Assembly (NCBI RefSeq): GCF_000515115.1
Contig: NZ_KI911538.1
Coordinates: 200,803 to 264,802, forward strand
Reading direction: 5' to 3'
Length of the DNA stretch: 64,000 nt
Source: Nocardiopsis sp. CNT312
Lineage (GTDB): Bacteria; Actinomycetota; Actinomycetes; Streptosporangiales; Streptosporangiaceae
Shown piece by piece: positions 6,718 to 58,032 of this stretch; within the stretch, counting starts at the first letter, position 1, and the number at the start of each line of letters is the position of its first letter. A model generated the notes under the pieces. It searched no databases, was not told where the DNA came from, and was given only the letters and a program-made list of their open reading frames with translations. The translations under genes were made by a program, and so were the position numbers.

Positions 6718-7782
6718 ATGACACGATCGCTCACGCTCGCCGCGGCCGCCGCAGTCGGCCTCGCCCTCGTGCCGTTTCCGGCGCTGGCCGCCGGGGCCGA
6801 CGGCGGCGGGACCGGCGGCCTGGACTACCCGCGGGGCGGCGAGGGCCCGGAGGGGTCGGAGACGGCGTTCACCCTCCAGGACCCGCGGATCGCCGAGTCG
6901 AGCGGGATCGCCCCCTCGCTCAGACACGAGGGGGTGTGGTGGACCCACAACGACAGCGGCGTGGACGTGGCACCCGCGCTGTACGCGGTGAACGGGGAGG
7001 GCGAGACACTGGCGACGGTCACCCTCGCGGTGCGGATCCGCGACTGGGAGGCGGTCACCGTCACCGAGGGGCCTGACGGCGTCCCGGTGGTCCTCGTGGG
7101 GAACATCGGTGACAACTACGGGGGCGGTTGGCCCAGTGTCACCGTGCACCGGTTCACCGAACCGGAGGTGCTCGCCGACACCACCGTGGAACCCGAGACG
7201 CTCACCCTCACCTACGCCGACGGTGGCCGCGACGCGGAGGCGATGATGGTCGACCCCCGCGACGGGCGCCTGTACGTGGTGTCCAAGGAGTTCTCCGGAA
7301 CGGTGTACGCGGCACCCGAGGAGATCGACCCCGCGGCGACCAACGTCCTGGAGCGGATCGACAGCGCGCCGCTGTTCGTCACCGACGCCGCGTTCCACCC
7401 CGACGGAACCCGGTACGTGCTGCGCACCTACTGGGGGGTGACCGTCTACGACTCCACTGAGGGTGTGCCGGGCACCTCCATGGGCTCCTTCGAACTGCCG
7501 GAGTCCGACCGGGGGGAGGCGATTGCCTTCACCCCCGACGGCACCGCGCTCATGGCCGGGACCGAGGGGGTGAACGCCCCCGTGTGGCGGGTACCGCTGC
7601 CCGAGGAGTACCGGTCCGGGCAGGCCCCGGAGAGCGCTGCGGAGACCGGGCAGGAGGGGGAGACGGAGCAGGCCGGCGGTGCCGGTCCCGGCTCGGGCGG
7701 CGCACTGCGGTTCATCGTCGCCGGTGCCGCTGTGGCGCTGCTCGCCATCGGAGGCATCGTGTTGCTCGCCCGGAAGGGGTAG
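6718..7782 (+). CDS. Secreted, membrane-anchored propeller-like protein
   Basis: A 354-residue protein with a Sec signal peptide (hydrophobic run followed by PALAAGA), a mature domain with repeated beta-rich segments, a Gly/Glu/Gln-rich linker from about residue 295 and a C-terminal hydrophobic span ending in ARKG. Short repeats of the type DPRDGRLYVVS and HPDGTRYVLRTY recall blades of a beta-propeller. No catalytic motif is visible. ATG 6718 was preferred because AGGA sits 8-9 nt upstream and it opens the signal peptide directly; ATG 6709 is a close alternative. It is probably exposed on the outer face of the membrane. Confidence 0.7.
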   Translation: MTRSLTLAAAAAVGLALVPFPALAAGADGGGTGGLDYPRGGEGPEGSETAFTLQDPRIAESSGIAPSLRHEGVWWTHNDSGVDVAPALYAVNGEGETLATVTLAVRIRDWEAVTVTEGPDGVPVVLVGNIGDNYGGGWPSVTVHRFTEPEVLADTTVEPETLTLTYADGGRDAEAMMVDPRDGRLYVVSKEFSGTVYAAPEEIDPAATNVLERIDSAPLFVTDAAFHPDGTRYVLRTYWGVTVYDSTEGVPGTSMGSFELPESDRGEAIAFTPDGTALMAGTEGVNAPVWRVPLPEEYRSGQAPESAAETGQEGETEQAGGAGPGSGGALRFIVAGAAVALLAIGGIVLLARKG

Positions 7783-45392: not shown

Positions 45393-47045
45393 TCAGGGGG
45401 AGTGCAGACGCAGGACCGCGTGCTCGGCCCACTCGGGCGGGCGCGCCAGCCGCGAGCACACCGCCATCGTCGCGAACGCCAGCGGAACCGTCCACGCGGC
45501 GGGCTGGGCGAGCAGGACACCCGGCAGCCAGGTCGGCACCTCCGCCAGGATCGACCACCCGACCGCGCCCGTCGCCGTGACCGCGCCTACGACCAGCCCG
45601 GCCGCAGCTCCGGGCAGGGTCAGGCCGCGCCACCAGATCCCCAGGACGAGCAGTGGACAGAACGTCGACGCCGCCACGGTGAACGCCCACAGCACCAGCA
45701 CGTTGATGTCGATCCGTTGGGCGGGCAGCGCCAGCACCACCGCCACGCACGCCCCCACAGCCACCGCCAGCCGCAGCCGGGGCACACTGCCCTGGAACAG
45801 GTCGTGGGACAGACCGCCAGCCAGGGCCAGCAGCAGCCCTGAGGACGTGGACAGGAACGCCCCGAACGCGCCCGCCGCCACTAGCGCGGTCATGAGGGTC
45901 CCCACCGCCCCCGGCTCGGCCTGCGCGGGCAGGACCACCGCGACGGTGTCGGTGCCCCGCAGCAGCACCAACTGCGGGGTGAGCACCCGCCCCAACAGTC
46001 CGTACACCGTCGGGAACAGATAGAACAGCCCCAGCAGCGCGATCACCCCCACCGCCACCCGGCGGGCGACCCGCGCGCTCGGGCTGGTGTGGAAGCGCAT
46101 GATGACGTGCGGCAGCCCCATGCACCCGAACGTGATCGCCAGCAGCGTCGACCACGTCTCGAACACGGGGTGCCCGCCGGTGTCCAACAGGGGGGTGCTC
46201 CACCGCTCGCCGCCCAGATCCGGCAGCCCCGCCGGGTGCGGCACGGGGGCACCGGCCGGGAACACGTACTCCGTGCCTTCCTCAGCGGTGTGCTCACCCG
46301 CCGCCAGCCGCACCTCCGCCCCCGAGGAGTCGGTGACGGTCACCGGTCGGTCCAGGTCGAACCGGGTGCCAACGCTGAACTCCACGCCCGTGCTCTCGGG
46401 GAAGCGGGTGCCCCACTCCGGGTGGAGCGCCTCCGAACGCGTGTCCGCGCCCGCGACCACCACCAGGTAGACGGCGGGCACCGCGATGAAGCCCAGCTTG
46501 ACCACGTAGTGGAAGGCCTGCACGTAGGTCGCTGACCGCATCCCCCCGACGGCGATCGACCCGCTCACCACCAAGCCCGCCAATACCACACCCACCCAGT
46601 ACGGTGTGCCGCTCACCAGGGCGAACACCACACCGGCCCCCTTGAACTGGGGCACCAGGTACAGCAGCATGATCACCAGGACGACGCAGCCGCAGAGCTT
46701 GCGCAGCGGCGGCGCGCCCAGCCGGTACTCCGCGAAGTCGGGCACCGTGTAGGCCCCGGACCGGCGCATCGGCCCGGCGACCAGTGCCACCACGGCCACG
46801 TAGCCCGCGGTGAACCCCACCGCGTACCACATCGTGCCGAGCCCGTTCTTGAGCAGCAGCCCGGCCAGTCCGAGCACCGAGGCGGCCGAGAGGTACTCCC
46901 CGGCGATCGCCGTCGCGTTCCAGTTCGGGTTCACCCTGCGGGAGGCCACGAGGAAGTCCGATGCCGACCGTGCCGCCCGCACCCCGTAGAGCCCGATCGC
47001 CAAACTCGTGACCAGGACCAAGCCGATGGTCAGGACGGAGATCAC
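45393..47045 (-). CDS. Sodium/solute symporter (SSS family, carboxylate type)
   Basis: A 550-residue SSS transporter with about 13 spans. DFLVASRRVNPNWNATAIAGEYLSAAS in the first loops and GLPHVIMRFHT near residue 330 are signatures of the ActP/MctP branch for acetate and other monocarboxylates. A hydrophilic insert of about 70 residues (about 215-285) distinguishes it from the actP-like neighbour. GTG 47045 overlaps the DUF485 stop. It is the last gene of the four-gene operon led by the histidine kinase. Confidence 0.88.
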   Translation of the reverse strand: MISVLTIGLVLVTSLAIGLYGVRAARSASDFLVASRRVNPNWNATAIAGEYLSAASVLGLAGLLLKNGLGTMWYAVGFTAGYVAVVALVAGPMRRSGAYTVPDFAEYRLGAPPLRKLCGCVVLVIMLLYLVPQFKGAGVVFALVSGTPYWVGVVLAGLVVSGSIAVGGMRSATYVQAFHYVVKLGFIAVPAVYLVVVAGADTRSEALHPEWGTRFPESTGVEFSVGTRFDLDRPVTVTDSSGAEVRLAAGEHTAEEGTEYVFPAGAPVPHPAGLPDLGGERWSTPLLDTGGHPVFETWSTLLAITFGCMGLPHVIMRFHTSPSARVARRVAVGVIALLGLFYLFPTVYGLLGRVLTPQLVLLRGTDTVAVVLPAQAEPGAVGTLMTALVAAGAFGAFLSTSSGLLLALAGGLSHDLFQGSVPRLRLAVAVGACVAVVLALPAQRIDINVLVLWAFTVAASTFCPLLVLGIWWRGLTLPGAAAGLVVGAVTATGAVGWSILAEVPTWLPGVLLAQPAAWTVPLAFATMAVCSRLARPPEWAEHAVLRLHSP

Positions 47046-47419
47046 CGCTCGCCCCCGCTCGGGCCGCCCGCCTGGGACCGGTCCTCGGCGCGTTCGGCCG
47101 CGCGCACGTGCCACAGAGCGAGGCCGAACAGCAAGGGGTAGATCGCCACCGTCAGCAGCAGCCACGACAGCGGCAGCTCCGCGATCCGCACCTCCCCGAG
47201 TGCGGGCAGCAGCGCGAACGCGCCGCTCATCCCGAACAACAGCAGCGACAGCAGCGCCACAGTACGGATCGCGATCCGCCGCTGCCTGCGGAACAGCCGC
47301 CGGGCCGCCTCGGCGTCGACGGGCTCGGGCAGGGGCAGCAGGTGCTGGGCCGGCCGGTTGCCCCGGGCGAGCGCCACCCGGGTCTGCGGGCTGGTGAGCT
47401 TCTCACGGCGCGGGCTCAC
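47042..47419 (-). CDS. DUF485-like small membrane protein
   Basis: A 125-residue protein with a basic N-terminus and two spans at about residues 54-73 and 81-103. DUF485 proteins usually precede ActP-type symporters and are thought to be accessory subunits. It overlaps the response regulator (GTGA at 47419) and the symporter (GTGA at 47045), which indicates tight translational coupling. Sequence similarity to the second DUF485 protein at 51271 is limited. Confidence 0.7.
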   Translation of the reverse strand: MSPRREKLTSPQTRVALARGNRPAQHLLPLPEPVDAEAARRLFRRQRRIAIRTVALLSLLLFGMSGAFALLPALGEVRIAELPLSWLLLTVAIYPLLFGLALWHVRAAERAEDRSQAGGPSGGER

Positions 47420-48243
47420 GGCGCGGCCCTCCGGGACCCCTCACCGTCCCCGGGAGCAGGGGCGCCCTGCGGACCGGCGTGGGCGTTGGCCGCGCGGCCG
47501 AGCTGGTCCTTGCGGGCCGCCTCCTTCAGTTGTTCGCGCAGGTGGCGGCCGTGCCTGCGGCTCACCGGCACGTCCCCGGCGGGGGTCCCCGCCACCAGAC
47601 CGGAAGAGGACGTCACCCGCAGGTCCCGCACCCACGGGATGGCGACGAGGTACCCCCGGTGCACGCGCACGAACCCGGCGGCGGACCACACCTCCTCCAG
47701 GTAGGAGAGCGACAGCCGGATCAGGTGGGTGCCGTCGGCGGTGTGCAGTCGCACGTAGTCCCCTTGGGCCTCCACGAACTGCACGTCGTCGCGTTTGACG
47801 AACACCGTGCGCCGACCGGTGTCGATCTGCACCACGTGCAGGTCCTCGGCGGGCGCCTCGGCCGCCGAGGACCGGCGCAGTTGCGCGATCCGCCCCACCG
47901 CCTCGGCCAGGCGCTCCGGACGGATCGGTTTGAGCAGGTAGTCGACGGCGCCGATCCCGAACGCCTCCACGGCGTGTGCTTCGGAGGCGGTGACGAACAC
48001 GATCGACGGCGGCTCCGAGAGCACACTCAGCACTCGGGCCACGTCCATGCCGTCCAGCCCCGGCATGAGGATGTCGAGGAAGGCGGCGTCGATGCTCGTG
48101 GTGCCCAGCAGCCGTACGGCGCTCGCGCCGTTCTCCGCCACCAGCACCTCCGACACCTCGGGCATCTCCCCGAGCAGGGCGGCCATCTCCTGGCGGGTCG
48201 ACGCCTCGTCCTCCACCACCAGGACCCTCAGGTCGGCCTTCAC
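47416..48243 (-). CDS. LytTR-family response regulator
   Basis: A 275-residue regulator with a receiver domain (VVEDE at 10-14, phospho-acceptor Asp57 in FLDILMPGLDG, conserved Lys in LLKPI) and a LytTR DNA-binding domain at about residues 138-240 (VQFVEAQGDYVRLHT, GFVRVHRGYLVAI). The last 30 residues are disordered. GTG 48243 overlaps the kinase stop. In other bacteria LytTR systems of this kind control carboxylate transporters, e.g. BtsSR and YpdAB of E. coli, which matches the symporter genes here. Confidence 0.93.
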   Translation of the reverse strand: MKADLRVLVVEDEASTRQEMAALLGEMPEVSEVLVAENGASAVRLLGTTSIDAAFLDILMPGLDGMDVARVLSVLSEPPSIVFVTASEAHAVEAFGIGAVDYLLKPIRPERLAEAVGRIAQLRRSSAAEAPAEDLHVVQIDTGRRTVFVKRDDVQFVEAQGDYVRLHTADGTHLIRLSLSYLEEVWSAAGFVRVHRGYLVAIPWVRDLRVTSSSGLVAGTPAGDVPVSRRHGRHLREQLKEAARKDQLGRAANAHAGPQGAPAPGDGEGSRRAAP

Positions 48244-49337
48244 TGGGCCACCACCCCCCGGGTGAATCGCGGGACGCGCACGGTGACCTTGGTGCCCTCA
48301 CCGAGCGCCGTTTCGATCACCAGACCGTACTCGGGCCCGTAGACCGCCCGCAGCCTCTGGTCGACGTTGGCCAGGCCCACGCCGCGGGTCTCCGGGCCGG
48401 TGCCTGCCAGGAGTGAACGGGCCAGGTCGGGGTGCATGCCGACCCCGTCGTCCTCGATCTCGATGACGCACAGCGGCCCCTCGCCGTAACCGGACACGCT
48501 GATGTGGCCCCGCCCCTCCTTGCGTTCCAGGCCGTGCCGGACGGCGTTCTCCACTATCGGCTGCACCACCAGGAACGGGACGGCCACGGGCAGGATTTCC
48601 GGCGCGATGCGCACGGTGATGTCGAGGCGGTCGTGGAAGCGGGCCCGCTGGAGTTCGAGGTAGGTCTCCACCGCTTCGAGCTCGTCGGCGACCGTGGCGT
48701 AGTCGCCCTTCTCGGAGAATCCGTAGCGCAGGTAGTCCGCGAAGTCGGAGAGCAGTTGCCGGGCGCGGTCGGGGTCGGTGCGCACCATCGCCGCGATCAC
48801 GGCGAGGGCGTTGTGCACGAAGTGCGGGGAGATCTGCGCGCGCAGCGAGCGCAGGTCCGCGGCGGCGATTCGGGCGCGGGCGCGGCGCAGCGCGGCGTGG
48901 TCCAGGTGCTCGGCGACCAGCGCGGCGGCGGCCTCCACGTCCGCTTCGACGGTCTCCCCGACGGCGACCAGGGCCCCGGAGAGCTCGTCGGCGACCATGA
49001 GCGGGGTGGCGTACAGAGGGGTGTTGTCGGCCATGCGCTCGCAGACCCCGCCCCCGTATTCGAAGACCTGGGCCAGCAGCGCATCGACCTGGGATGAGGG
49101 GATGTGTCGGCCGTGGGAGACGACCGGCCCGTCCAGGTCGGCCAGCACCACCCCGTCGACCGCGAGCAGCCGCCGCAGCCGCCGGGCCGCGGAGGGCGCG
49201 TCCCTGCCGTGCAGCCCGCTGCGCAGGTCGAGGCCCAGGGCGTGGATCCGGCGCATCAGTTCGACGCTCGCCTGCCGCTCCGAGGGCGCCGGGCGCCGCC
49301 GGGAGTGGAGCTTCCGCGACAGCCACCTTTTTGACAC
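48240..49337 (-). CDS. LytS-type sensor histidine kinase
   Basis: A 365-residue kinase of the His_kinase/HATPase_c pair. The phospho-acceptor is His172 in AQISPHFVHNAL. N-, G1- and G2-boxes are PIVENAVRHGL, EDDGVGM and RGVGLANVDQRL. The N-terminal 150 residues resemble a GAF-like domain; no transmembrane segment is visible, so it is probably a cytosolic sensor. GTG 49337 lacks a ribosome-binding site and is probably leaderless. Confidence 0.92.
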   Translation of the reverse strand: MSKRWLSRKLHSRRRPAPSERQASVELMRRIHALGLDLRSGLHGRDAPSAARRLRRLLAVDGVVLADLDGPVVSHGRHIPSSQVDALLAQVFEYGGGVCERMADNTPLYATPLMVADELSGALVAVGETVEADVEAAAALVAEHLDHAALRRARARIAAADLRSLRAQISPHFVHNALAVIAAMVRTDPDRARQLLSDFADYLRYGFSEKGDYATVADELEAVETYLELQRARFHDRLDITVRIAPEILPVAVPFLVVQPIVENAVRHGLERKEGRGHISVSGYGEGPLCVIEIEDDGVGMHPDLARSLLAGTGPETRGVGLANVDQRLRAVYGPEYGLVIETALGEGTKVTVRVPRFTRGVVAQ

Positions 49338-49343
49338 GAATCG

Positions 49344-49349
49344 ACCTTA
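49344..49349 (-). promoter_or_regulatory. -10 box (TAAGGT) of the kinase/regulator/transporter operon
   Basis: On the minus strand TAAGGT ends 6 nt before the kinase GTG, consistent with leaderless transcription of the four-gene operon. The gap to the actP terminator at 49564 is GC-rich and otherwise featureless. Confidence 0.5.
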
Positions 49350-49563
49350 TCCCAGCGGAGTGTGTCGGTGGTCACGTCCGGGTGTCACCTTTCGTGGGTG
49401 AGGGCGCACACGGGGGCAGTGCGGGCAAGGGGCGGGCCCGCCCCCGTGGGAAGGGGCGGGCCCGGTGCGGGGTGGAGCCGGGGCGGCGGCCGCCCCCTGG
49501 GGTGGAGTGCGGTCCCGAGCGGCCGCCGTAGGCGGCCCCGGCTCCGGGGGGATGGTTTCGGAG

Positions 49564-49591
49564 GCGGGCGCCCGGCCTTCCGGGCGCCCGC
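49564..49591 (-). terminator. Terminator after the ActP-like symporter
   Basis: A perfect 12-bp stem (49564-49575 with 49580-49591) with a 4-nt loop lies 4 nt after the symporter stop codon. Confidence 0.8.
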
Positions 49592-49594
49592 TGG

Positions 49595-51274
49595 TCAGTG
49601 GCTGCCCGCCTTCTCCGCTCCGGCGCCGGTCAGGGCACGGACCTGGAGCATGGCGAACTTGTCGAAGTCCTGCTCCTTGGAGCTGAGCGTGCCCAGGACC
49701 GCGCACAGCAGGCCGAAGGGCACCGACACCAGCGCCGGGTAGGGCATCGGGAACCAGGCGAAGTCGGCGCCCGGGACGAGCGCGGTCTCCGACCCCGACA
49801 CCACCGGCGAGAAGAACACCAGGCCGACGGCGGAGACGAGGCCGCCGTAGATGCCGGCCAGGGCGCCCCTGGTGTTGAACCGCTTCCAGAACAGGCTGAG
49901 CAGCAGGGTGGGCAGGTTGGCCGAGGCGGCGATCGCGAAGGCCAGCGAGACCAGGAAGGCCACGTTGAGGTTCTGCGCGAACACGGCCAGGACGATGGCC
50001 ACGACACCGATGCCCAGGGCGGTGAGCTTGGCGACCCTGACCTCTTCGCTTCCGGTCGCCTTGCCCTTGCGCAGCACCGAGTTGTAGAAGTCGTGCGCCA
50101 GGGACGAGGAGGAGGCGATGACCAGCCCCGCCACGGTGGACAGGATGGCCGCGAAGGCCGCCGAGGCGATGAGCGCCAGCAGGACGGAGCCCGCGAACGG
50201 TCCGCCGATCTGCTCGCCCACGGTCTGGGCGAGCTGCGGGGCGGCCGTGTTGCCTCCCGGGTTCTGCGCGGTGATGGCCTCGTGGCCGACCAGGGCGGCG
50301 GCACCGAAGCCGAGCACCAGCGTCATGAGGTAGAAGACACCGATGAGGCCGATCCCCCAGTTGACCGACTTACGGGCGCTCTGGGAGTCGGGGACCGTGT
50401 AGAAGCGGATGAGGATGTGCGGCAGGCCGGCCGTACCCAGGACCAGGGCCATGCCGAGGCTGATGAGGCTCAGCTTGTTCCACATGGTCGCGACGGCGTC
50501 GCCGGGCACCTCGACCCCGAACCGCAGCCCGGGCTCCAGGAGCGCCGCGCCGTGCTGGCTGGCGCTGGCCGCGTCGTTCATCAGCGCGCCCAGGTTGAAG
50601 CCGTACAGGGACAGCGTGAGCAGGGTCAGCAGGGCCGCGCCGCCCATGAGGATGACGGCCTTGACGATCTGGACCCAGGTGGTGCCCTTCATGCCGCCCA
50701 GCGACACGTAGAGCGTCATCAGCAGGCCGACGACCACGATGCCGACGATCTTGGCGACGTCGGCGCTCATGCCCAGGAAGGTCTGCCCCTCCTGGATGCC
50801 CAGCAGCAGGGCGATGAGCGCGCCCGCACCGACCATCTGGGCGAGGAGGTAGAAGATCGACACGACGACGGTGGACACCGCCGCGGCCGTACGGACGGGG
50901 CGCTGCTGCATGCGGTAGGACAGCACGTCGCCCATGGTGTAGCGGCCGGAGTTGCGCAGGAGTTCGGCCACGAGCAGGAGGGCGACCAACCACGCCACCA
51001 GGAAGCCGATGGAGTAGAGGAAGCCGTCGTAGCCGAACAGCGCGATCATGCCGGCGATGCCGAGGAAGGAGGCGGCCGACATGTAGTCGCTGCCGATCGC
51101 CAGGCCGTTCTGGAGGGGGGAGAAGCCGCGTCCGCCCGAGTGGAAGTCGGTGGCGTTGCGGGTGTTGCGGTTGGCCCAGATCGTGATGCCGATCGTGGCC
51201 GCGACCATGAGGCCGAAGAGGACCAGGGTGACGAGGCGGGTGCTCTCGCTCGTCGCTTCCGCCGCGAGCATCAT
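49595..51274 (-). CDS. actP: Cation/acetate symporter
   Basis: A 559-residue SSS transporter. DFHSGGRGFSPLQNGLAIGSDYMSAASFLG, GYDGFLYSIGFLVAW and GLPHILIRFYTVPD match ActP closely. It has 13-14 spans. ATG 51274 overlaps the DUF485 stop (ATGA). The paired DUF485 and ActP genes lie directly upstream of the LytS/LytTR operon on the same strand, so the two-component system may control both transporter pairs. Confidence 0.93.
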   Translation of the reverse strand: MMLAAEATSESTRLVTLVLFGLMVAATIGITIWANRNTRNATDFHSGGRGFSPLQNGLAIGSDYMSAASFLGIAGMIALFGYDGFLYSIGFLVAWLVALLLVAELLRNSGRYTMGDVLSYRMQQRPVRTAAAVSTVVVSIFYLLAQMVGAGALIALLLGIQEGQTFLGMSADVAKIVGIVVVGLLMTLYVSLGGMKGTTWVQIVKAVILMGGAALLTLLTLSLYGFNLGALMNDAASASQHGAALLEPGLRFGVEVPGDAVATMWNKLSLISLGMALVLGTAGLPHILIRFYTVPDSQSARKSVNWGIGLIGVFYLMTLVLGFGAAALVGHEAITAQNPGGNTAAPQLAQTVGEQIGGPFAGSVLLALIASAAFAAILSTVAGLVIASSSSLAHDFYNSVLRKGKATGSEEVRVAKLTALGIGVVAIVLAVFAQNLNVAFLVSLAFAIAASANLPTLLLSLFWKRFNTRGALAGIYGGLVSAVGLVFFSPVVSGSETALVPGADFAWFPMPYPALVSVPFGLLCAVLGTLSSKEQDFDKFAMLQVRALTGAGAEKAGSH

Positions 51275-51642
51275 CGGGTGGCCTCCTCACTGCTGCGGAC
51301 GAGTTCGTCGTGCAGCTCGGTGGCCTGGGGGTCGAGCTTGCCGCGGGCATAGGACGTGTAGGCGACGGCGATGCCGAAGGTGGAGGCGAACTGGAGCAGG
51401 CCGAACACCAGCGCGAAGTTCACGTTGCCGAAGAGCACGGTGCCCATGAGGTCGCGTGCGAAGGCCGACATGAGCACGTAGAGGAAGAACCATGCCAGGA
51501 AGGCCACGCTCATGGGGAAGACGAAACGGTACAGTCGGCGCTTGAGCTCGTTGAAGCGCGGATCGCTGTGCATGGCGATCAGCGCCTCCTCGGAGATGCC
51601 GCCGTTCGTCGGCGGACTGCCCGTCTGCTTCTCTTCTGCCAT
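51271..51642 (-). CDS. DUF485 membrane protein
   Basis: A 123-residue DUF485 protein with spans at about residues 42-62 and 73-95 and the conserved region SDPRFNELKRRLYRFVFPMSV. GAGGAGG before ATG 51642 sets the start. It is translationally coupled to actP. An imperfect inverted repeat TTAC-N8-GTAA (51709-51724) lies 67 nt upstream. Confidence 0.9.
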   Translation of the reverse strand: MAEEKQTGSPPTNGGISEEALIAMHSDPRFNELKRRLYRFVFPMSVAFLAWFFLYVLMSAFARDLMGTVLFGNVNFALVFGLLQFASTFGIAVAYTSYARGKLDPQATELHDELVRSSEEATR

Positions 51643-52260: not shown

Positions 52261-52292
52261 TGGGCGTCCTTCCCTCGGGGCGGCGCGTGAGC

Positions 52293-52326
52293 GGGGAGGC
52301 CCGGCCCGCGCGGGCCGGGCCTCCCC
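52293..52326 (-). terminator. 34-bp perfect GC palindrome (terminator)
   Basis: Two 17-bp arms are perfectly complementary without a spacer, 121 nt after the stop of the 52447 gene and 33 nt before the next start on the same strand. It should stop or attenuate transcription between these genes. Confidence 0.65.
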
Positions 52327-52446
52327 GGGTGTGCGTGCGTTGGCGCGTGTTCCTCTCGCGAGGGCGGCTCCGGGCCCGAGGCCCGTCGCCACAGTGGGAG
52401 CCTGTCCTATGCGTGTCGGAGGCGCGGTCAATGACACGCGCTTTCC

Positions 52447-52689
52447 TCACATTCCGTGACGGTGTGGAGATCCTCGGTGGTATCTGTCGCCGCCGTGGCC
52501 GACCGAGCTGGCGTAGTAGCTGCCGTAGCCGTAGCCGTGGTGGCGGAAGCAGTCGTGCCCGTGACGGGTCCTGGGGTAGCCGCCGGAGGACGGCGCGGTG
52601 TCGGCCATCGTGGTGGACGGCACGCCGAACGCCAGCGCCGGGGCCGCGAATCCTGCGAACAGGGCTCGCGCGATGTGTCTCCTGTCCAT
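52447..52689 (-). CDS. Small secreted His/Gly/Tyr-rich protein
   Basis: An 80-residue protein with signal peptide MDRRHIARALFAGFAAPALAFG ending TTMAD, closely like those of the proteins at 55464 and 56791. The mature 50 residues are rich in His, Gly, Tyr and Arg (HHGYGYGSYYASS) with one Cys; the SFxGP repeat of its relatives is missing. A GGGGGAT ribosome-binding site precedes ATG 52689. Metal binding by the His-rich part or a structural surface role is possible; both are inference. Confidence 0.6.
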   Translation of the reverse strand: MDRRHIARALFAGFAAPALAFGVPSTTMADTAPSSGGYPRTRHGHDCFRHHGYGYGSYYASSVGHGGDRYHRGSPHRHGM

Positions 52690-52939
52690 GGGATCCCCCG
52701 GTGCGCCGGGGCCCGCGCTCGGCGTGTCCGTCCGTCCGCGTTCCGCCCGTCCGGTCGACGGGGGCCCCTTGTACCCATGAACCCTGCCGAGGATCCGGGC
52801 GGCGCGGTGGGACGCCACGCGATGGCGACATCTCCACGTAAGCACACCAGGTGATGATTCGTACGCTTTGTGCGGTTGTTATGACTCTTTCTTTAGGGTT
52901 TCAACTTCTTAGTGGAGTGATGCCCGATGTGTACTTCCT

Positions 52940-52956
52940 ATGACAAGGACTGTCAT
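52940..52956. promoter_or_regulatory. Inverted repeat ATGACA-N5-TGTCAT
   Basis: A perfect 6-5-6 repeat in the AT-rich gap between the gene at 52447 and the mini gene at 53100, followed by a further ATGACAT at 52961. It could serve either divergent gene. The rest of this 410-nt gap shows only AT-rich promoter-like sequence. Confidence 0.45.
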
Positions 52957-53099
52957 TGATATGACATTCGGCTCGCCATGTCGTGCCGGTCCCCGTGGGT
53001 GCGGTCTAGATTGCGAGTTGTTCGGGCGCTACCGGTCCTTGCGGACTCATGGTGTTAAGCGCCTGGAACCGTATACAACTCATCATTTCGGAGATACAG

Positions 53100-53279
53100 A
53101 TGACCTACAGGCAGGGCGACCGCGTCCAGTTCCGCAGCAGCCGCCACAACGACCAGATCCGCACCGGCCAGGTGCACGAGGTCCAGGGCAAGGGCCAGAA
53201 CGCCCGTCTCACGATCACCGACGACGAGGACCAGCAGTCGGTCCGCGTCGAGGCGAACCAGATCGAGGGCAAGCTCTAA
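53100..53279 (+). CDS. TUDOR/SH3-like mini protein (59 aa)
   Basis: A 59-residue protein (YRQGDRVQFRSS..IRTGQVHEVQGKGQNARLTI) with the K/R-x-GD-x-V start and five-strand pattern of the Hva1/TUDOR-like small barrel proteins. GGAG lies 7 nt before ATG 53100. Such proteins are found in many soil actinomycetes without a known role. It is followed by a good terminator. Confidence 0.7.
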   Translation: MTYRQGDRVQFRSSRHNDQIRTGQVHEVQGKGQNARLTITDDEDQQSVRVEANQIEGKL

Positions 53280-53300
53280 CCTGGATCTCCTGGGTTCTCT

Positions 53301-53331
53301 GGGGCGCTCGGCCGTCAGGGCCGGGTGCCCC
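53301..53331 (+). terminator. Terminator after the mini barrel protein
   Basis: A 13-bp stem with two G-T wobbles (53301-53313 with 53319-53331) and a 5-nt loop begins 22 nt after the stop codon. Confidence 0.7.
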
Positions 53332-53493
53332 TCTCGTGTGCCTCTTCTCCCCGGCCCGTCCGTCTCCGTCGGCGGCCCGTTAGCAAGCACCGGATTATGG
53401 TGCGTTTCCGGACGTGTTCCTCGGTAAAGGAATATTTTCGTTGTCTCTCGGTTCGGAGCGATGTGCCGTCCGGGACCGTTACGCTCCGTCGTG

Positions 53494-53509
53494 TTGTAAT
53501 CGCGGACAA
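53494..53509. promoter_or_regulatory. TTGT-N8-ACAA site upstream of the first Crp-like gene
   Basis: TTGT and ACAA are symmetrically placed with 8 nt between, compatible with a Crp/Fnr-type half-site arrangement. It lies in an AT-richer patch 190-210 nt before the gene. The remainder of 53332-53701 shows no gene. Confidence 0.3.
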
Positions 53510-53701
53510 GAGGAAGGCTGGCGTTCGTGTGGGGAGAGGCGGCTGCGGCCGCCCGGACATGTACCGGTTCCACCACCGTGTACCGCTGTTGCGGTCCGCG
53601 GTGCACGCGGCGCGCCCTCCCTTCTGCCTGTGGCTGTGCGGCCACACGTATCCACCGTCCACGTCGCCGGTCAGGCGAGCACGAGTTCGGGTGAGGGACC
53701 G

Positions 53702-54451
53702 TTGAACAACATGCAGGCGCCCAGTGTGGGACGTGCGGAGGGCTACCGAGTCCCTGCACCGAGGACGACAGAGGAGACGGTCGACGCGGAGCGGCTCCAC
53801 CAGGCCGAGTGGGTCGTCTCGTGTTTGGAGGGCCGCTCCGCGGCCCGGCCCGGGCGCGGAGCGGTCGTGGCCCTGGCCTCCAGGCTGAGGACCCGTCTGC
53901 TCCGCCGCGGTGAGCTGGCCTTCCGTGAGGGGGACAGCGAGGCGGGGGTGTGGATCGTCCGGGCCGGGCGGCTCGAACTGGCCGTCAAGGGGCGCCAGCG
54001 TCCGCTGATCGTGCAGATCATGCGCTCGGGAGGGATCGACGGCGACATACAGAAGCTGCTGGGCATGCCGTTCCCGTACCGTGCGCGGGCCCTGGAGGAG
54101 ACCGAGTGCCTGACCCTGGCACCCCGGGACTTCGAGGAACTGCTGGCAGAGCACCCCCAGATCGCCCGGATGTGGATGTCTACCATGGCGGAGCGGCTGT
54201 CCTACTCCCACGACCGGATCGTGGGGATGCTCGGGCGCACGCTCACACAGCAGAGTTCCCGCCTGCTGCTGGACGAGGCCGCCTCGGGGGTGGTCGACGT
54301 GCCCCAGCAGAAACTGTCGGAGATGCTCGGTGTCTGCCGTCCGTCGCTGAACAAGGTGCTCAAGGAACTGGAGGGGCAGGGCCTCATCCGTCTCCGCTAC
54401 GGGGCCGTGGACATCCTCGACCCCTACGGGCTGGCCCAGCGGGCGGACTGA
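53702..54451 (+). CDS. Crp/Fnr-family transcription regulator, copy 1
   Basis: A 249-residue regulator with a cNMP-binding-like beta-barrel (about residues 60-150: GELAFREGDSEAGVWIVRAG), a dimer helix and a Crp-type winged helix (VPQQKLSEMLGVCRPSLNKVLKELEGQGLIRL). The phosphate-binding cassette that contacts cAMP in Crp (GELGLF..RSA) is replaced by GGIDGDIQKLLGMPFPYRAR, so cAMP binding is doubtful. No Fe-S Cys cluster is present. TTG 53702 has GAGG 5 nt upstream; ATG 53711 is possible. The protein is a paralogue of the one at 55951. Confidence 0.85.
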   Translation: MNNMQAPSVGRAEGYRVPAPRTTEETVDAERLHQAEWVVSCLEGRSAARPGRGAVVALASRLRTRLLRRGELAFREGDSEAGVWIVRAGRLELAVKGRQRPLIVQIMRSGGIDGDIQKLLGMPFPYRARALEETECLTLAPRDFEELLAEHPQIARMWMSTMAERLSYSHDRIVGMLGRTLTQQSSRLLLDEAASGVVDVPQQKLSEMLGVCRPSLNKVLKELEGQGLIRLRYGAVDILDPYGLAQRAD

Positions 54452-54469
54452 GACACGGAGGAAGAAGAA

Positions 54470-54499
54470 GGGGCGGGGGCCCTTTCGGGCCCCCGCCCC
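54470..54499. terminator. Bidirectional terminator
   Basis: A perfect 13-bp GC stem with a TTTC loop lies between the convergent Crp-like gene and the LAxTG protein gene. Confidence 0.85.
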
Positions 54500-54522
54500 C
54501 GTGTTCTCCGATGTCCGCAGTG

Positions 54523-54975
54523 CTACTCGGCGGCCTCGGAGGAGGCGGCCTCGCGGCGACGGCGGGTCATGTACATGACCACACCGCCGGTCAGGGCGAT
54601 GGCACCGCCGATCAGGGCGAGGTCCTCGGACGGGCCGGTCGTGGCGAGCACCTCGGGGGCACCGCCCACAACGGCGGCGCCACCCTCCTCGGCAACGGGG
54701 CAGGGGCCCTCGAAGGCGCCGCCCGGGCCCGCCCCGTCGCAGACCTCGTGGAACTCGGCGCCGTCGGCCTCGCTGTGGATGCCGGCACCGTCGTTGCCGT
54801 GGTGGTCGTCGCGGCCACCGCGGTTGGTGTCCTCGGCAGCCTGCTCGGCGTTGTCGTCGACGGTGTCGGCGGTGGCCACACCCGCCACCGACAGGGAGCC
54901 GCCGATGAGGGCGGCCATCGCGACCCCGGGCCAGAACTTCTTGTTCAGGACGGTGCGTCGAACGAGTTCAGACAT
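54523..54975 (-). CDS. LAxTG-type sortase substrate, secreted surface protein
   Basis: A 150-residue protein with a signal peptide (residues about 1-37, ending ATAD), an acidic, Gly/His-rich mature part with two Cys, the sorting motif LATTG near residue 111, a hydrophobic span and the basic tail MTRRRRE. LAxTG is the motif used by class E sortases of high-GC actinomycetes, so covalent wall anchoring is expected. No sortase gene is in the window. AGGA 6 nt before ATG 54975 sets the start. Confidence 0.75.
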   Translation of the reverse strand: MSELVRRTVLNKKFWPGVAMAALIGGSLSVAGVATADTVDDNAEQAAEDTNRGGRDDHHGNDGAGIHSEADGAEFHEVCDGAGPGGAFEGPCPVAEEGGAAVVGGAPEVLATTGPSEDLALIGGAIALTGGVVMYMTRRRREAASSEAAE

Positions 54976-54986
54976 TTGCACTCCTA

Positions 54987-54999
54987 TGCATCGGATGCA
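54987..54999. promoter_or_regulatory. TGCAT-CGG-ATGCA palindrome in the LAxTG gene leader
   Basis: A perfect 5-3-5 inverted repeat lies directly upstream of the ribosome-binding site of the LAxTG gene and could act on its transcription or translation. Confidence 0.35.
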
Positions 55000-55068
55000 G
55001 GTAGTCGCAGTTTTTCGTGGATTCGTCGGCTATCAGAACACCGGCACGCTGCTTCAACGGGGGAAATG

Positions 55069-55084
55069 TGTCGTACTTACGACA
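55069..55084. promoter_or_regulatory. TGTCGTA-CT-TACGACA palindrome
   Basis: A perfect 7-2-7 repeat that can also be read as TGTCG-N6-CGACA, the geometry of Crp-family sites (TGTGA-N6-TCACA). It is 94 nt upstream of the LAxTG gene on the minus strand and in the shared 482-nt gap before the Gly/Tyr-rich gene at 55464. That gap is AT-rich for this genome and otherwise contains no gene. Confidence 0.5.
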
Positions 55085-55221
55085 GTTCCGTTGTCTTTTG
55101 CTCGGGCGGGAGAATGGCGGGATCCCTCGTGGTGGTGCTCCGAGGGCCCCATGGGGGCGAGAATGGTTTTGATGCTGCTTCGGCAACTGCTCTCATGTAT
55201 GGGGCAAAATGAAGGAAATAC

Positions 55222-55237
55222 TGTCGCTTCGATCACA
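55222..55237. promoter_or_regulatory. TGTCG-N6-TCACA Crp-like site
   Basis: The right half site equals the Crp consensus and the left half matches 3 of 5. The flanking bases extend the symmetry (C...G). It lies 227-242 nt before the start of the Gly/Tyr-rich gene at 55464. Confidence 0.4.
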
Positions 55238-55463
55238 GATAAGCCTGTGCGTCTGATTTCATGTGGTTATGTGGAGCCCGTTGCCGCTGAGCAGCCGGGT
55301 ATTCCCGGATCTGCGCATCGGTGACCCGGGTTCCTTCCGAGGACTTCTGGAGGGGAAGACCCGGGGCGGGAACCGCCGGGCACACCGGAACCGGTGCGCC
55401 GGGTGGAACCGGCCAAGGGCTCGGACCGGGCCTCGGCCCGTCCGTTGAGCTAGGAGGTATTCC

Positions 55464-55763
55464 ATGAAGTCGAAGACGATCGCCCGTGTCCTGGTCGCCG
55501 GTGTCGCGGCCCCGATGCTCGCTCTGGGTCTGCCGTCCGTCGCCATGGCCGACAGTTTCTGGCACGGTCACAGCTCGTTCGCCGGACCCAAGGGAGCGAT
55601 GTCCCAGAGCATCACCGCCTTCGCAGGCAACGGCTACGGCTACGGATACGGCGGCGGTTACGGCGGTTACGGCGGCGGTGGCGGGTCGTTCTACAAGGCG
55701 AACGCCTCGTTCGCCGGCCCGCACGGCGCCGGGTCGCAGAACATCTTCAGCTTCGCCAACTAG
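55464..55763 (+). CDS. Small secreted Gly/Tyr-rich repeat protein, copy A
   Basis: A 99-residue protein with signal peptide (KTIARVLVAGVAAPMLALG...VAMAD). The mature part has two copies of a 20-residue repeat, HSSFAGPKGAMSQ-SITAFA and NASFAGPHGAGSQ-NIFSFA, flanking a linker of YGYGYGGGYGGYGGGGG. It contains no Cys. AGGAGG with good spacing precedes ATG 55464, so it is probably highly expressed. The composition recalls structural or amyloid-forming surface proteins, but I know no matching family. Confidence 0.75.
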   Translation: MKSKTIARVLVAGVAAPMLALGLPSVAMADSFWHGHSSFAGPKGAMSQSITAFAGNGYGYGYGGGYGGYGGGGGSFYKANASFAGPHGAGSQNIFSFAN

Positions 55764-55862
55764 TTGCCCGACAAGAGAGGCGGTGACGGCCTCGCCGGGA
55801 CGGAACACCGGAGACGGTGGTTTTCCGCTCGGCCCTGCGAGGCCGGTCCGATCACCGCGAAG

Positions 55863-55890
55863 GGGGGTCCCGCCCACGTGCGGGACCCCC
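55863..55890 (+). terminator. Terminator after copy A
   Basis: An 11-bp perfect stem (55863-55873 with 55880-55890) and 6-nt loop stand about 100 nt after the copy A stop and 60 nt before the next gene. Confidence 0.65.
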
Positions 55891-55950
55891 GCTCACGCGT
55901 TTCCCGCGGGGCGCACCCCGGGGAGCGGCGGGCGTGGACGGAGGACGGAC

Positions 55951-56688
55951 ATGGACGTGAGGGCGACACCGGTGACCACGGGCCGGTTCAACGGCGCCGA
56001 CACCGGCGATCCGCTGATCCAGCAGGCCGCGTGGGTGGCCCGCTCCGTCGGCCGGGGCTCGGCGGCGCCGCTGACCCCCCGCGACCTCTCCGCGCTCGCC
56101 GCGTACCTGCACCGGCAGACCCTGAGCAGGGGCGCCGTGGCCTTCCGCGAGGGCGACCCCGCCTCACGGGTGTGGATCGTCCGCTCCGGCCACATCGAAC
56201 TCTCGGTCGGCTCGGGGGACGAGCACACCGTCGTCGAGATCAGACACGCCGGAGACGTCGACGGCGACATCCAGTTCCTGCTGGACAAGCCCCTGCCCTA
56301 CACGGCACGCGCCGCCGACGAGGTCGAACTCCTCTACCTCCGGGCCGCGGACTTCGAACGCCTCATGTCCGAGCACCGCGCACTGGCCCGCAGGTGGCTC
56401 GCCAGCATCGCCGGCCGCCTCGACGCCAGCCAGATGCGGATCATGGACCTCCTGGGCAAGTCGCTGACCGAGCAGACCGCGCAACTGCTGCTGGACGAGG
56501 CCTCCAGCGAGGTGGTCCCGCTGCCACAGCGGACCCTCGCGGCGATGCTCGGGGTGCGCAGGCCCTCCCTCAACCGCGTCCTGAAGAGGCTGGAACGGGA
56601 ACGGCTCATCGAGATGCGCTACGCCGCGATCGAGATCCTGGACCCCGACGGCCTCGCCAAGAAGGCGCGCGGTGACGCAGGACACTGA
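55951..56688 (+). CDS. Crp/Fnr-family transcription regulator, copy 2
   Basis: A 245-residue paralogue of the regulator at 53702. The barrel (GAVAFREGDPASRVWIVRSG), the altered cassette (GDVDGDIQFLLDKPLPYTAR) and the winged helix (LPQRTLAAMLGVRRPSLNRVLKRLERERLIEM) align throughout. The shared GD-[I/V]-DGDIQ sequence suggests that both respond to the same kind of signal, probably not cAMP. GGAGG before ATG 55951 is clear. It lies between the two repeat protein genes, 102 nt ahead of copy B. Confidence 0.87.
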   Translation: MDVRATPVTTGRFNGADTGDPLIQQAAWVARSVGRGSAAPLTPRDLSALAAYLHRQTLSRGAVAFREGDPASRVWIVRSGHIELSVGSGDEHTVVEIRHAGDVDGDIQFLLDKPLPYTARAADEVELLYLRAADFERLMSEHRALARRWLASIAGRLDASQMRIMDLLGKSLTEQTAQLLLDEASSEVVPLPQRTLAAMLGVRRPSLNRVLKRLERERLIEMRYAAIEILDPDGLAKKARGDAGH

Positions 56689-56748
56689 TTCGGTCATCTA
56701 GGAGACAGTTGGACTGCGTTTCGGCCGTGAGGGTGCTTGATTGGTTAG

Positions 56749-56766
56749 TGGTTGCGGATACAACCA
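56749..56766. promoter_or_regulatory. TGGTTG-N6-CAACCA operator before copy B
   Basis: A perfect 6-6-6 inverted repeat, exactly the spacing of a Crp-type dimer site, 24 nt before ATG 56791 and 10 nt before its ribosome-binding site. At this position a bound protein would repress the gene. Confidence 0.55.
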
Positions 56767-56790
56767 TTCTCCGTTGCAAAGGAGTAGACC

Positions 56791-57078
56791 ATGGCCAAGC
56801 GCAGCGCACGCCGTCTGGCGGCCGCGGTCCTCGCCGCTCCCGTTCTGGCTCTGGCAGCACCCGCCGCGGCCTCCGCGGACGCGTACTGGTCGTCCCACGG
56901 ATCCTTCGTCGGGTACGGCGGAGCGTCCAGCTACCACGTGAAGAGCTTCGCCGGCAGTGGCTACGGCTACGGCTACGGCGGTGGCTACTGGAGCGGCGGA
57001 TCGTTCTACAAGGCCAGCGGCAGCTTCGCCGGACCCTACGGAGCGTCGTCCTACAACGTGTTCAGCGGCGCCTACTAG
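56791..57078 (+). CDS. Small secreted Gly/Tyr-rich repeat protein, copy B
   Basis: A 95-residue paralogue of the protein at 55464. A signal peptide ending AASAD is followed by HGSFVGYGGASSYHVKSFA, a linker GYGYGYGGGYWSGG and the second repeat SGSFAGPYGASSYNVFSGA. The repeat consensus is x-S-F-x-G-x-x-G-A-x-S-x-x-[V/I]. No Cys is present. AAGGAG stands 6 nt before ATG 56791. It is followed by a palindromic terminator. Confidence 0.75.
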   Translation: MAKRSARRLAAAVLAAPVLALAAPAAASADAYWSSHGSFVGYGGASSYHVKSFAGSGYGYGYGGGYWSGGSFYKASGSFAGPYGASSYNVFSGAY

Positions 57079-57108
57079 CCCGGCGGCTCCCGAAAGCCGC
57101 CAGCGACG

Positions 57109-57138
57109 CGGGCCCGACCCCGGCCGGGGTCGGGCCCG
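57109..57138. terminator. 30-bp perfect palindrome, bidirectional terminator
   Basis: Two 15-base arms without a spacer form a GC hairpin between the convergent copy B gene and fdhD. Confidence 0.8.
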
Positions 57139-57153: not shown

Positions 57154-58032
57154 TTACCGGCCCAGGGCTTCACGGTCCCCGGTGCCCGGCGCAGCGCCGG
57201 CGCGTTCCTCCAGCAGCACCCGGTCCTGCCCCGTGTAGACGTTCATCGAGGAGCCGCGGAGGAAGCCGACGAGGGTCATCCCCGCTTCGGCGGCCAGGTC
57301 GACGGCCAGGGACGAGGGCGCCGAGACGGCGGCCAGGGCTGGCACGCCGGCCATCCACGCCTTCTGCACGAGCTCGAACGAGGCGCGTCCGGAGACTACG
57401 AGGACGGTCTCCCTCAGCGGCAGGCGGCCCGAGTTCAGCGCCCAGCCGATCAGTTTGTCCACGGCGTTGTGTCGCCCCACGTCCTCGCGGACCGCGAGCA
57501 TCTCCCCCTCGCCGTCGAAGAGCCCCGCCGCGTGCAGCCCCCCGGTGCGGTCGAAGAGCCGCTGGTAGGAGCGCAAGCGCTCGGGCAGCAGCCCGAGGGT
57601 GTCGGCACCCACGCGCAGGGCGTCGTCGGAGACCAGCCACTGGGCCTGCATGCGCACCGCGTCCAGGCTGGCCCTGCCGCACAGACCGCAGGAGGACGTG
57701 GTGTAGAAGTTGCGCTCCAGCGAGGTGTCCGGGCGCGGCACGCCCGGGGACAGGGACACGTCGAGCACGTTGTAGGTGTTGGTGCCGTCCTCGGCGGCCC
57801 CGGCGCAGTACCGGATGGCCTGGACCTCCGAGCGGGCGGCGACCACGCCCTCACCGACGAGGAACCCCGAGACCAGATCGAAGTCGTGCCCCGGGGTGCG
57901 CATGGTGACGGCGAGCGGAGTGCCGTCCACCCTGATCTCCAGGGGCTCCTCGGCGATGAGGGTGTCCACCCGTTCGCTCGCCGCCCCGTCCCTGATCCGC
58001 AGGACCTTTCCTCTGACCGTGGACCGTCCCAT
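57154..58032 (-). CDS. fdhD: Formate dehydrogenase accessory sulfurtransferase
   Basis: A 292-residue FdhD protein, which passes sulfur from IscS-type desulfurases to the molybdenum cofactor of formate dehydrogenase. The active CxxC is in TTSSCGLCG near residue 115; [37 protein letters not shown] and [12 protein letters not shown] are family motifs. No formate dehydrogenase gene is in the window. The ATG at 58032 is the natural start. Confidence 0.95.

Follow-up and report, generated by a model that had tools for sequence, protein, structure and literature searches.

A conserved Nocardiopsis island of Cmr-type regulators and small secreted proteins, predicted to be a thiol-redox-controlled surface protein set

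We analysed a 64,000-nt stretch of DNA (the window) inside the 4.68-Mb draft genome of Nocardiopsis sp. CNT312, in which two Crp/Fnr regulator genes, Crp1 and Crp2, lie among genes for small secreted proteins, a Tudor-like mini protein and a surface protein with an LAxTG sorting signal. This gene cluster (the island, Table 1) is real and conserved, and its order in other Nocardiopsis goes beyond chance. The island is probably a thiol-redox-controlled set of surface proteins, some anchored and some free. Control by regulators of the type of Mycobacterium tuberculosis Cmr is well predicted, and the proteins may serve as a coat. The observations that bear on this are the gene order and its conservation, the kinship of the regulators with Cmr, the Cmr boxes, the cysteine pattern, the family of hairpin proteins, the sorting signal and a single class E sortase match.

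Island layout and regulators

Genes were taken from our own simple codon-usage caller together with the list of open reading frames (ORFs), and are named here by their first position where they have no other name. The island comprises the type-B secreted gene 51898 (−), the secreted gene 52447 (−), the Tudor-like gene (+), Crp1 (+), the LAxTG gene (−), the type-A secreted gene 55464 (+), Crp2 (+) and the type-A gene 56791 (+), followed by an fdhD-like gene (−). The start of Crp1 was set at 53711 (the caller gave 53867) because relatives retain the 53711 start. The closest named relatives at the locus were Nocardiopsis sp. CNR-923 (G028), FIRDI 009 (G029) and N. lucentensis DSM 44048 (G019); strain FR4 (G031) also enters the comparisons below, in which the present genome is G000. 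The order Tudor-like/Crp1/LAxTG (opposite strand)/secreted/Crp2/secreted was common to three other Nocardiopsis, within contig reach. The N. lucentensis contig stops after Crp2, before the last secreted gene, and its other end lies inside the counterpart of 52447.

A preliminary description of this DNA had proposed two paralogous Crp/Fnr genes, an LAxTG surface protein and a Tudor-like mini protein. All were recovered, the regulators now being specified as Cmr-type. Its pairing of secreted genes with Crp-like genes recurs elsewhere, as homologues of the secreted genes adjoin Crp-like genes at three loci (L058, L059 and L060) and FR4 has a partial Crp gene. In agreement with that description, which knew of no system of this composition, our non-exhaustive search of the open-access literature found none. 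Each repeat gene had also been credited with its own strong ribosome-binding site and terminator. AGGAG(G) does precede 55464 and 56791 (score 4 each), but the site at 52447 is weak (score 1); a GC-rich inverted repeat follows all three genes, but no T-run was seen.

Crp1 and Crp2 were 50% identical over 217 aa, and both contained cNMP-binding and Crp-type helix-turn-helix domains. Among solved structures, the best match of each was M. tuberculosis Cmr (PDB 5w5a/5w5b), with E values of 2.4e-52 for Crp1 (next different protein, 8.4e-11) and 1.1e-65 for Crp2 (next, 5.8e-11), and the resemblance spanned nearly the whole length of both proteins. On this sequence kinship, we assign both to the Cmr type. 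In the cNMP-binding part, Crp1 and Crp2 (53711–56688) also resembled the family 2B encapsulin shells, far below the cut-off. According to the account of M. tuberculosis Cmr in PMC5499769, oxidation or nitrosation of Cys36 and Cys131 weakens DNA binding, cAMP has no direct effect on it, and Cmr binds TGTCAGCGTGCTGACA in its own promoter and autoregulates.

Conservation of the two Cmr cysteines differed between the regulators. The first position was Cys in 41 of 42 aligned relatives, the sole exception being the Crp2 of the window, while the second was Cys in 16/42, including all seven Crp1 proteins and none of the four Crp2 proteins. An additional Cys just before the helix core RPSLNK occurred in 7/7 Crp1 and in none of the other 35 aligned rows. 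The helix containing RPSLNK is the DNA-recognition helix of the Crp/Fnr family. The Tudor-like gene adjoined Crp1 in all seven genomes inspected. Its best Pfam match in the window was DUF1918 (PF08940; E 0.0037, 17.3 bits, below the cut-off of 24), a model matched by 7/7 Tudor-like members at E ≤ 1 (best 0.0007).

Secreted and anchored proteins

The secreted ORFs 52447, 55464 and 56791 had been described as three related proteins sharing nearly the same signal peptide. The signal-peptide pattern is common to all three, and 55464 and 56791 also share a mature domain, but 52447 shares the signal peptide only, and a fourth relative, 51898, just beyond the interval covered by that description (52293–57138), had been missed. 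Positional counterparts of 52447 were His-rich in L058 and cut by the contig end in L060; no gene was called at this position in CNR-923, where the profile matches an uncalled open frame.

Aligned matches defined a family module of approximately F-x5-S-x-AGPxGA-x-S-x2-V-x-S-x-A. Type A has two modules and a Gly/Tyr/His linker of variable length, the first module being worn down in some members. Type B (~82 aa) has two modules bridged by a short DDGxVxY turn and is the usual partner of type A, following it directly on the same strand in many genomes. AlphaFold2 models predict a two-hairpin architecture for both, with strands at residues 31–41/44–55 and 74–85/88–98 in type A (turns at the P-x of AGPxGA) and at 64–75/78–88 and 94–104/107–117 in type B (second turn at the P-G of AGPGGA). 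Mean pLDDT was 61 for each model, and ten-residue means in the strand regions were 55–80 for A and 63–86 for B (63 for residues 61–70, 81–86 after). A PDB fold search with both models, which are of moderate confidence, gave no match at E ≤ 0.001. Pfam gave nothing convincing (best E 0.021 among 16 A members, and 0.013, to a proline-rich family, among 10 B members), and the best NCBIfam E value for 52447, 55464 and 56791 was 0.37. One NCBIfam match to a beta-lactamase model (E 0.00077), among the 10 B members, was taken as spurious. As judged from the 26 members scanned, the AGPxGA secreted proteins are an unnamed family without a Pfam model.

The A profile matched 47/345 genomes of the order, in 14/70 genera, and 16/394 genomes of a class-wide sample, all but one of which (G572) belong to the family of Nocardiopsis. 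Within the genus, 25/40 genomes matched in the first search, including at least one weak match (G030), and 24 with a stricter profile. Few candidates were scored per genome in these genome-wide counts, so that absences are soft. A second locus in the present genome (L006, contig C13) holds two cysteine-containing A-type genes in tandem (6729–7016 and 7344–7598), with a C-terminal KKGCGDDFKKRPW, downstream of a methionine-aminopeptidase-like gene (named by eye) and with no adjoining regulator; related loci in G019, G028 and G029 have two or three copies. Weak matches on contig C7 were rejected as family members, their resemblance being confined to the signal peptide. This contig encodes two Gln/Asn/Gly-rich secreted proteins with GQGQEGTN-like repeats (L075, 4939–6008), in which the signal peptide is similar and the module absent.

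FIRDI 009 carries three copies of the last secreted gene (L079, 13022–14900), repeated every ~590–660 bp together with DNA upstream of it; in two of the copies, a 150-nt stretch of that DNA shows 97% identity. The tandem proteins retain the C-terminal module, and their middle is wholly rewritten (His/Gly versus Tyr/Trp/Asp). Small size, secretion, fast-changing linkers and tandem copies would suit secreted antimicrobial or signalling peptides, and the best NCBIfam match was to a bacteriocin family, at 11 bits against a cut-off of 32. However, that match is far below its cut-off, no processing, immunity or export genes were recognised alongside by eye, and a similar module occurs in the anchored protein. 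We regard peptides of this kind as highly improbable.

The anchored protein (54523) has a complete sorting signal, with LAxTG, a hydrophobic stretch and a basic tail, and matched TIGR01167 at 17.8 bits (cut-off 15.9). Strong scores for it were confined to the four island genomes, with two others weak, among 342 genomes searched. Its best-kept stretch, EFHEVCD(G/T)AGPGG(A/S)FxGPC (three proteins aligned), contains the turn motif of the AGPxGA family. In the loci compared, AGPxG(A/S) occurred in 5 of 791 predicted genes longer than 160 aa, two of them LAxTG genes of the island locus and one a family member. A single sortase match was found in the genome, of class E (NF033747, 189.7 bits against a cut-off of 160).

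One anchored protein and several free small ones with a similar beta-turn motif recall the long and short chaplins (PMC13251363, PMC4255298, as far as those accounts go). Together with the class E sortase, this would fit a chaplin-like developmental coat, that is, a hydrophobic or amyloid sheath for aerial hyphae and spores under developmental rather than redox regulators. However, the chaplin model (PF03777) matched none of 16 members at E up to 1, which led us to reject chaplin membership, and instead of the three GN motifs 12–13 residues apart that mark chaplins, 55464 has a single GN and 56791 lacks it altogether. The mature parts are polar and rich in Gly, Tyr, His and Ser, not strongly hydrophobic (by eye), and the kinship of the regulators and the boxes indicate thiol redox. 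Chaplins were already present in 40/40 Nocardiopsis genomes searched, which also removes chaplin loss as a cause of the AGPxGA family. A developmental coat of this kind seems to us a rather unlikely, if still considerable, alternative.

Cmr boxes in the island and in other genomes

Sites in the island match the Cmr site published as TGTCAGCGTGCTGACA (PMC5499769). A window scan for TGTC-N8-GACA placed both exact sites in the intergenic DNA of the island, which amounts to 1954 bp or 3% of the window, and five of the seven intergenic window sites with at least 7/8 matches also fell in the island. The box at 52951 matches TGTCA-N6-TGACA at all ten positions. That at 55069 reads TGTCG-N6-CGACA, a dyad that had been listed among 11 conserved intergenic ones before the comparison with the published Cmr site. 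Half-sites were constant in four genomes at both exact boxes and the spacers differed, except that FIRDI 009 and N. lucentensis have the same spacer at the second. The dyads TTCCT-N6-AGGAA and GTGGC-N6-GCCAC upstream of Crp1, which are not conserved in genomes with only the Tudor-Crp1 pair, and GTTGCGATCGCGAC ahead of the last secreted gene, were set aside as not Cmr-like.

Table 1 Coordinates of features in the island
Feature	Position	Strand	Remarks
Type-B secreted protein, 118 aa	51898–52254	−	Two compact beta-hairpins (AlphaFold2 model); aligns with type-B partners elsewhere
Perfect inverted repeat	52292–52327		Terminator-like, no T-run seen
Secreted His/Gly/Tyr-rich protein	52447–52689	−	Shared signal peptide, no AGPxGA module, Gly/Tyr/His tail
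Degenerate Cmr box (7/8)	52930–52945		Start 21 bp from next box
Exact Cmr box TGTCATTGATATGACA	52951–52966		Between 52447 and the Tudor-like gene
Tudor/SH3-like (DUF1918-like) protein, 59 aa	53100–53279	+	Partner of Crp1
Crp1, Cmr-type regulator	53711–54451	+	Has the two Cmr cysteines and a further Cys beside the recognition helix
LAxTG (LATTG) cell-wall-anchored protein	54523–54975	−	Signal peptide and sorting signal, conserved EFHEVCD loop
Exact Cmr box TGTCGTACTTACGACA	55069–55084		LAxTG/55464 divergent region
Degenerate Cmr box (7/8)	55222–55237		Upstream of 55464; conserved in four genomes
Type-A secreted protein, 99 aa	55464–55763	+	Two predicted AGPxGA beta-hairpins and Gly/Tyr linker
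Imperfect inverted repeat (83%)	55856–55897		Terminator-like, no T-run seen
Crp2, Cmr-type regulator	55951–56688	+	Without second Cmr cysteine, in this genome also without the first
Degenerate Cmr box GGTCATCTAGGAGACA (7/8)	56692–56707		Upstream of 56791; before each FIRDI 009 tandem copy
Type-A secreted protein, 95 aa	56791–57078	+	Gly/Tyr/Ser-rich
Perfect inverted repeat	57109–57138		Terminator-like, no T-run seen
fdhD-like gene	57154–58032	−	Named by eye

The association of boxes with Cmr-type genes extended beyond the island. The DNA upstream of cmr was scanned at 36 of 40 named loci (L078–L080 and L114 were left out), and exact boxes within 350 bp were found at 17 of them, with 21 sites against 1.5 expected and at most one site for each of eleven permuted quartets. 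In G019 and G029 a box lay just past the opposite end of the Nocardiopsis-type cmr gene. Across whole genomes, TGTCAN6TGACA occurred at 39 sites in ten cmr-positive Nocardiopsis and at nine in ten cmr-negative ones (p 0.0004); the reversed pattern gave three and seven, respectively.

A similar association was found for genes with the AGP pattern (AGP-type genes), which pools type-A, type-B and LAxTG genes. An exact box lay within 350 bp upstream of 8/25 such genes in cmr-positive genomes and of 0/59 elsewhere (Fisher p 2.5e-5, for genes that are related by descent). The 25 genes came from six genomes (G062 contributing 0/4), and the 59 include those of G572, a genome outside the Cmr search. 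The count takes in neither the LAxTG genes of CNR-923, FIRDI 009 and N. lucentensis nor two records found by the loose pattern only, Actinopolyspora mortivallis (exact box) and N. endophytica (none); with these two records the figure becomes 9/27. The eight boxed genes were the LAxTG gene of the window, two counterparts of 55464, one gene of FR4 and four at an unlinked second locus on other contigs of G019, G028 and G029 (L011, L012 and L013). Exact boxes with differing spacers also lay upstream of the inositol-3-phosphate synthase gene (INO1) in G029 and G019 (L216 3417 and L222 2758). A model applied to the L216 copy assigns it to the mycothiol type, and boxes at such a gene are in keeping with a thiol-redox regulon.

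In FR4, one AGP-type gene is preceded by a 7/8 box and adjoins a partial Cmr relative (L065/L114), from which an exact box separates it; another, with its own exact box, adjoins a multicopper oxidase gene that has two exact boxes upstream (L213, 1672–4231). This latter neighbourhood, along with His-rich variants in many relatives, would suit metal-binding secreted proteins, whose His/Tyr/Gly linkers would chelate copper or zinc at the wall while the Cmr-type regulators acted in a copper and thiol stress response. However, the linkers of 55464 and 56791 are of Tyr and Gly without His, their mature parts contain three and two His, and linkers vary freely whereas the hairpins are conserved. Metal binding is, in our judgement, an unlikely explanation.

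Small secreted Gly/Tyr/His-rich proteins without the AGPxGA module, unrelated to the AGP family, were also encoded near Cmr-type genes in A. mortivallis (L091, 9947–12054) and N. potens (L092, 9473–10666), with an exact box upstream. Across 37 loci including L114, genes of this composition made up 3/61 small genes lying no more than 2.5 kb from the regulator and 0/101 farther away (p 0.052), a suggestive enrichment. Cmr relatives elsewhere also adjoin pyridine nucleotide-disulphide oxidoreductase genes, identified as such at one locus and by eye at others; genes resembling thioredoxin or glutaredoxin, likewise named by eye, are among their neighbours as well.

Several points weigh against Cmr-type redox control of an anchored and free hairpin set. 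Box totals in the window were close to or below first-order Markov expectation (exact, 2 versus 1.1; at least 7/8, 15 versus 25.5), so that the signal lies in position and conservation, not in number. The type-A genes 55464 and 56791 have only 7/8 boxes within 350 bp, 51898 has no box of 7/8 or better (best 6/8), and neither do the two unlinked AGP-type genes of this genome. No exact box lay within 350 bp upstream of cmr at 19/36 loci, including all eight Nocardiopsis ones, and the three genomes with only the Tudor-Crp1 pair had no box of at least 7/8 within 700 bp of the Tudor-like gene. Some of the boxed genes in the four island genomes are orthologues of one another, so that the counts are not independent. 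Work of another group, cited in PMC5499769, saw the binding of a Cmr homologue shift at some loci with a cAMP analogue. The loop of the CNR-923 LAxTG protein is AGVGGA, which ties it less closely to the AGPxGA module than the loops of its three counterparts, and the pTM of the hairpin models was 0.42–0.43, indicating moderate model confidence. Finally, no Cmr match was found in 41 of the 47 genomes that have the secreted family, indicating that the family does not need Cmr-type regulation. This last count is also consistent with mere neighbourhood, in which the Cmr-type genes would control themselves and distant redox genes and the secreted genes would be adjacent by inheritance, as are the Cmr autoregulation described for M. 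tuberculosis (PMC5499769) and the 17/36 relatives with exact boxes at their own promoters. However, boxes are found at the LAxTG and secreted promoters and are conserved in four species, one precedes each tandem gene of FIRDI 009, and others lie at unlinked AGP-type genes in three island genomes. We consider inheritance without control to be quite improbable.

Origin, proposed mechanism and comparison with known systems

The alternation of regulator and secreted genes had been attributed to duplication of a unit of the two, a proposal rejected by tree comparison. Crp1 orthologues occur without a secreted gene: in G001, G026 and G030 the Crp1 orthologue lies beside a Tudor-like gene, with no gene of the secreted family next door. 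A single clade of the island's four Crp1 and four Crp2 proteins that excludes these orthologues was rejected (approximately unbiased (AU) test, p 1.6e-7), and a sister relationship between all Crp1 and all Crp2 was not (AU p 0.19). The phylogeny places the Crp1/Crp2 split before the separation of Crp1 from its orthologues without a secreted neighbour. An older duplication followed by losses is possible. The repeat unit of the FIRDI 009 tandem is the secreted gene plus upstream DNA, without a regulator. The simplest reading would be that, in a single Nocardiopsis lineage, AGP-type secreted genes came together with a Crp2 gene and a Tudor-Crp1 pair, a history that requires no doubling of a regulator-secreted unit.

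For the redox-controlled surface set that we favour, we propose the following mechanism. Crp1 and Crp2 would bind the TGTC-N8-GACA boxes, which lie in both divergent intergenic regions and ahead of the last secreted gene, and so switch expression of the sortase-E-anchored protein and several small free AGPxGA hairpin proteins. Crp1 would be the sensor, as it retains the cysteine pair that makes M. tuberculosis Cmr responsive to oxidation and nitrosation, and Crp2, without the second cysteine, may be a constitutive or differently tuned partner. Reduced Crp1 and/or Crp2 would occupy the boxes, and oxidation or nitrosation of Crp1 would alter occupancy and hence expression; by analogy with Cmr at dosR, repression relieved by oxidant would be the simplest direction. 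The exported hairpin proteins would collect on the hyphal wall, with a possible role in aerial growth or stress protection. The hyphal or spore surface role put forward in the preliminary description is plausible as to the surface, and is sharpened here to a predicted thiol-redox-controlled surface protein set.

A more elaborate version, which as a whole we hold to be doubtful at best, is a coat gated by redox state or nitric oxide. Oxidised Crp1, with its third Cys next to the recognition helix, would release or activate the Tyr-rich hairpin genes, the anchored loop would seed a strand-pairing assembly, and the tyrosines would be oxidatively cross-linked, with a multicopper oxidase available in FR4-like relatives. 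The oxidant would be both the trigger and the curing agent of the coat. On this view, small Gly/Tyr/His-rich secreted proteins, among them the unrelated ones of A. mortivallis and N. potens and the AGP-type one beside the partial Cmr gene of FR4, would have come repeatedly under Cmr-type control in actinobacteria.

The island offers a predicted target class for Cmr-type regulators beyond mycobacteria, with defined operators; our non-exhaustive search of the open-access literature found no earlier one. It also delineates an unnamed family of small, putative surface proteins that occurs across the bacterial family to which Nocardiopsis belongs and whose arrangement resembles that of the chaplins, although the parts are unrelated. 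If the proposed control is true, oxidative and nitrosative stress would be tied to remodelling of the actinomycete surface. Next to the island (45393–51642), a sensor/response-regulator-like pair and two symporter-like operons were named by eye, and a symporter operon holds the same position in FIRDI 009 and CNR-923.

Among known systems, DUF1918 (PF08940) is the closest to the 59-aa Tudor-like protein, all seven scanned members of which match it at E ≤ 1, although the window member scores below the cut-off. CwpA and CwpB of Actinoplanes missouriensis are, by their published description, non-chaplin surface proteins anchored by a class E sortase that matter for morphogenesis. They differ in that, as far as that description goes, mature CwpA/CwpB have no homologues in that genome and hence no free short forms. 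The chaplins (ChpA-H, PF03777) with their class E sortase share with the island an LAxTG-anchored form and free short forms in a filamentous actinomycete, whereas the island proteins have AGPxGA hairpins and variable Gly/Tyr/His linkers; only the short loop is common to the anchored and free island proteins (AGVGGA in one of four), which makes the chaplin resemblance an analogy and not membership. The closest likeness of the regulators is to M. tuberculosis Cmr (Rv1675c), with the helix core RPS(I/L)N, a TGTC-N8-GACA site, tandem sites and a divergent-promoter site, and with its cysteines kept in Crp1. In contrast to that system, two paralogues are present here, Crp2 lacks the second cysteine, and surface proteins take the place of dosR and rv1676 as predicted targets.

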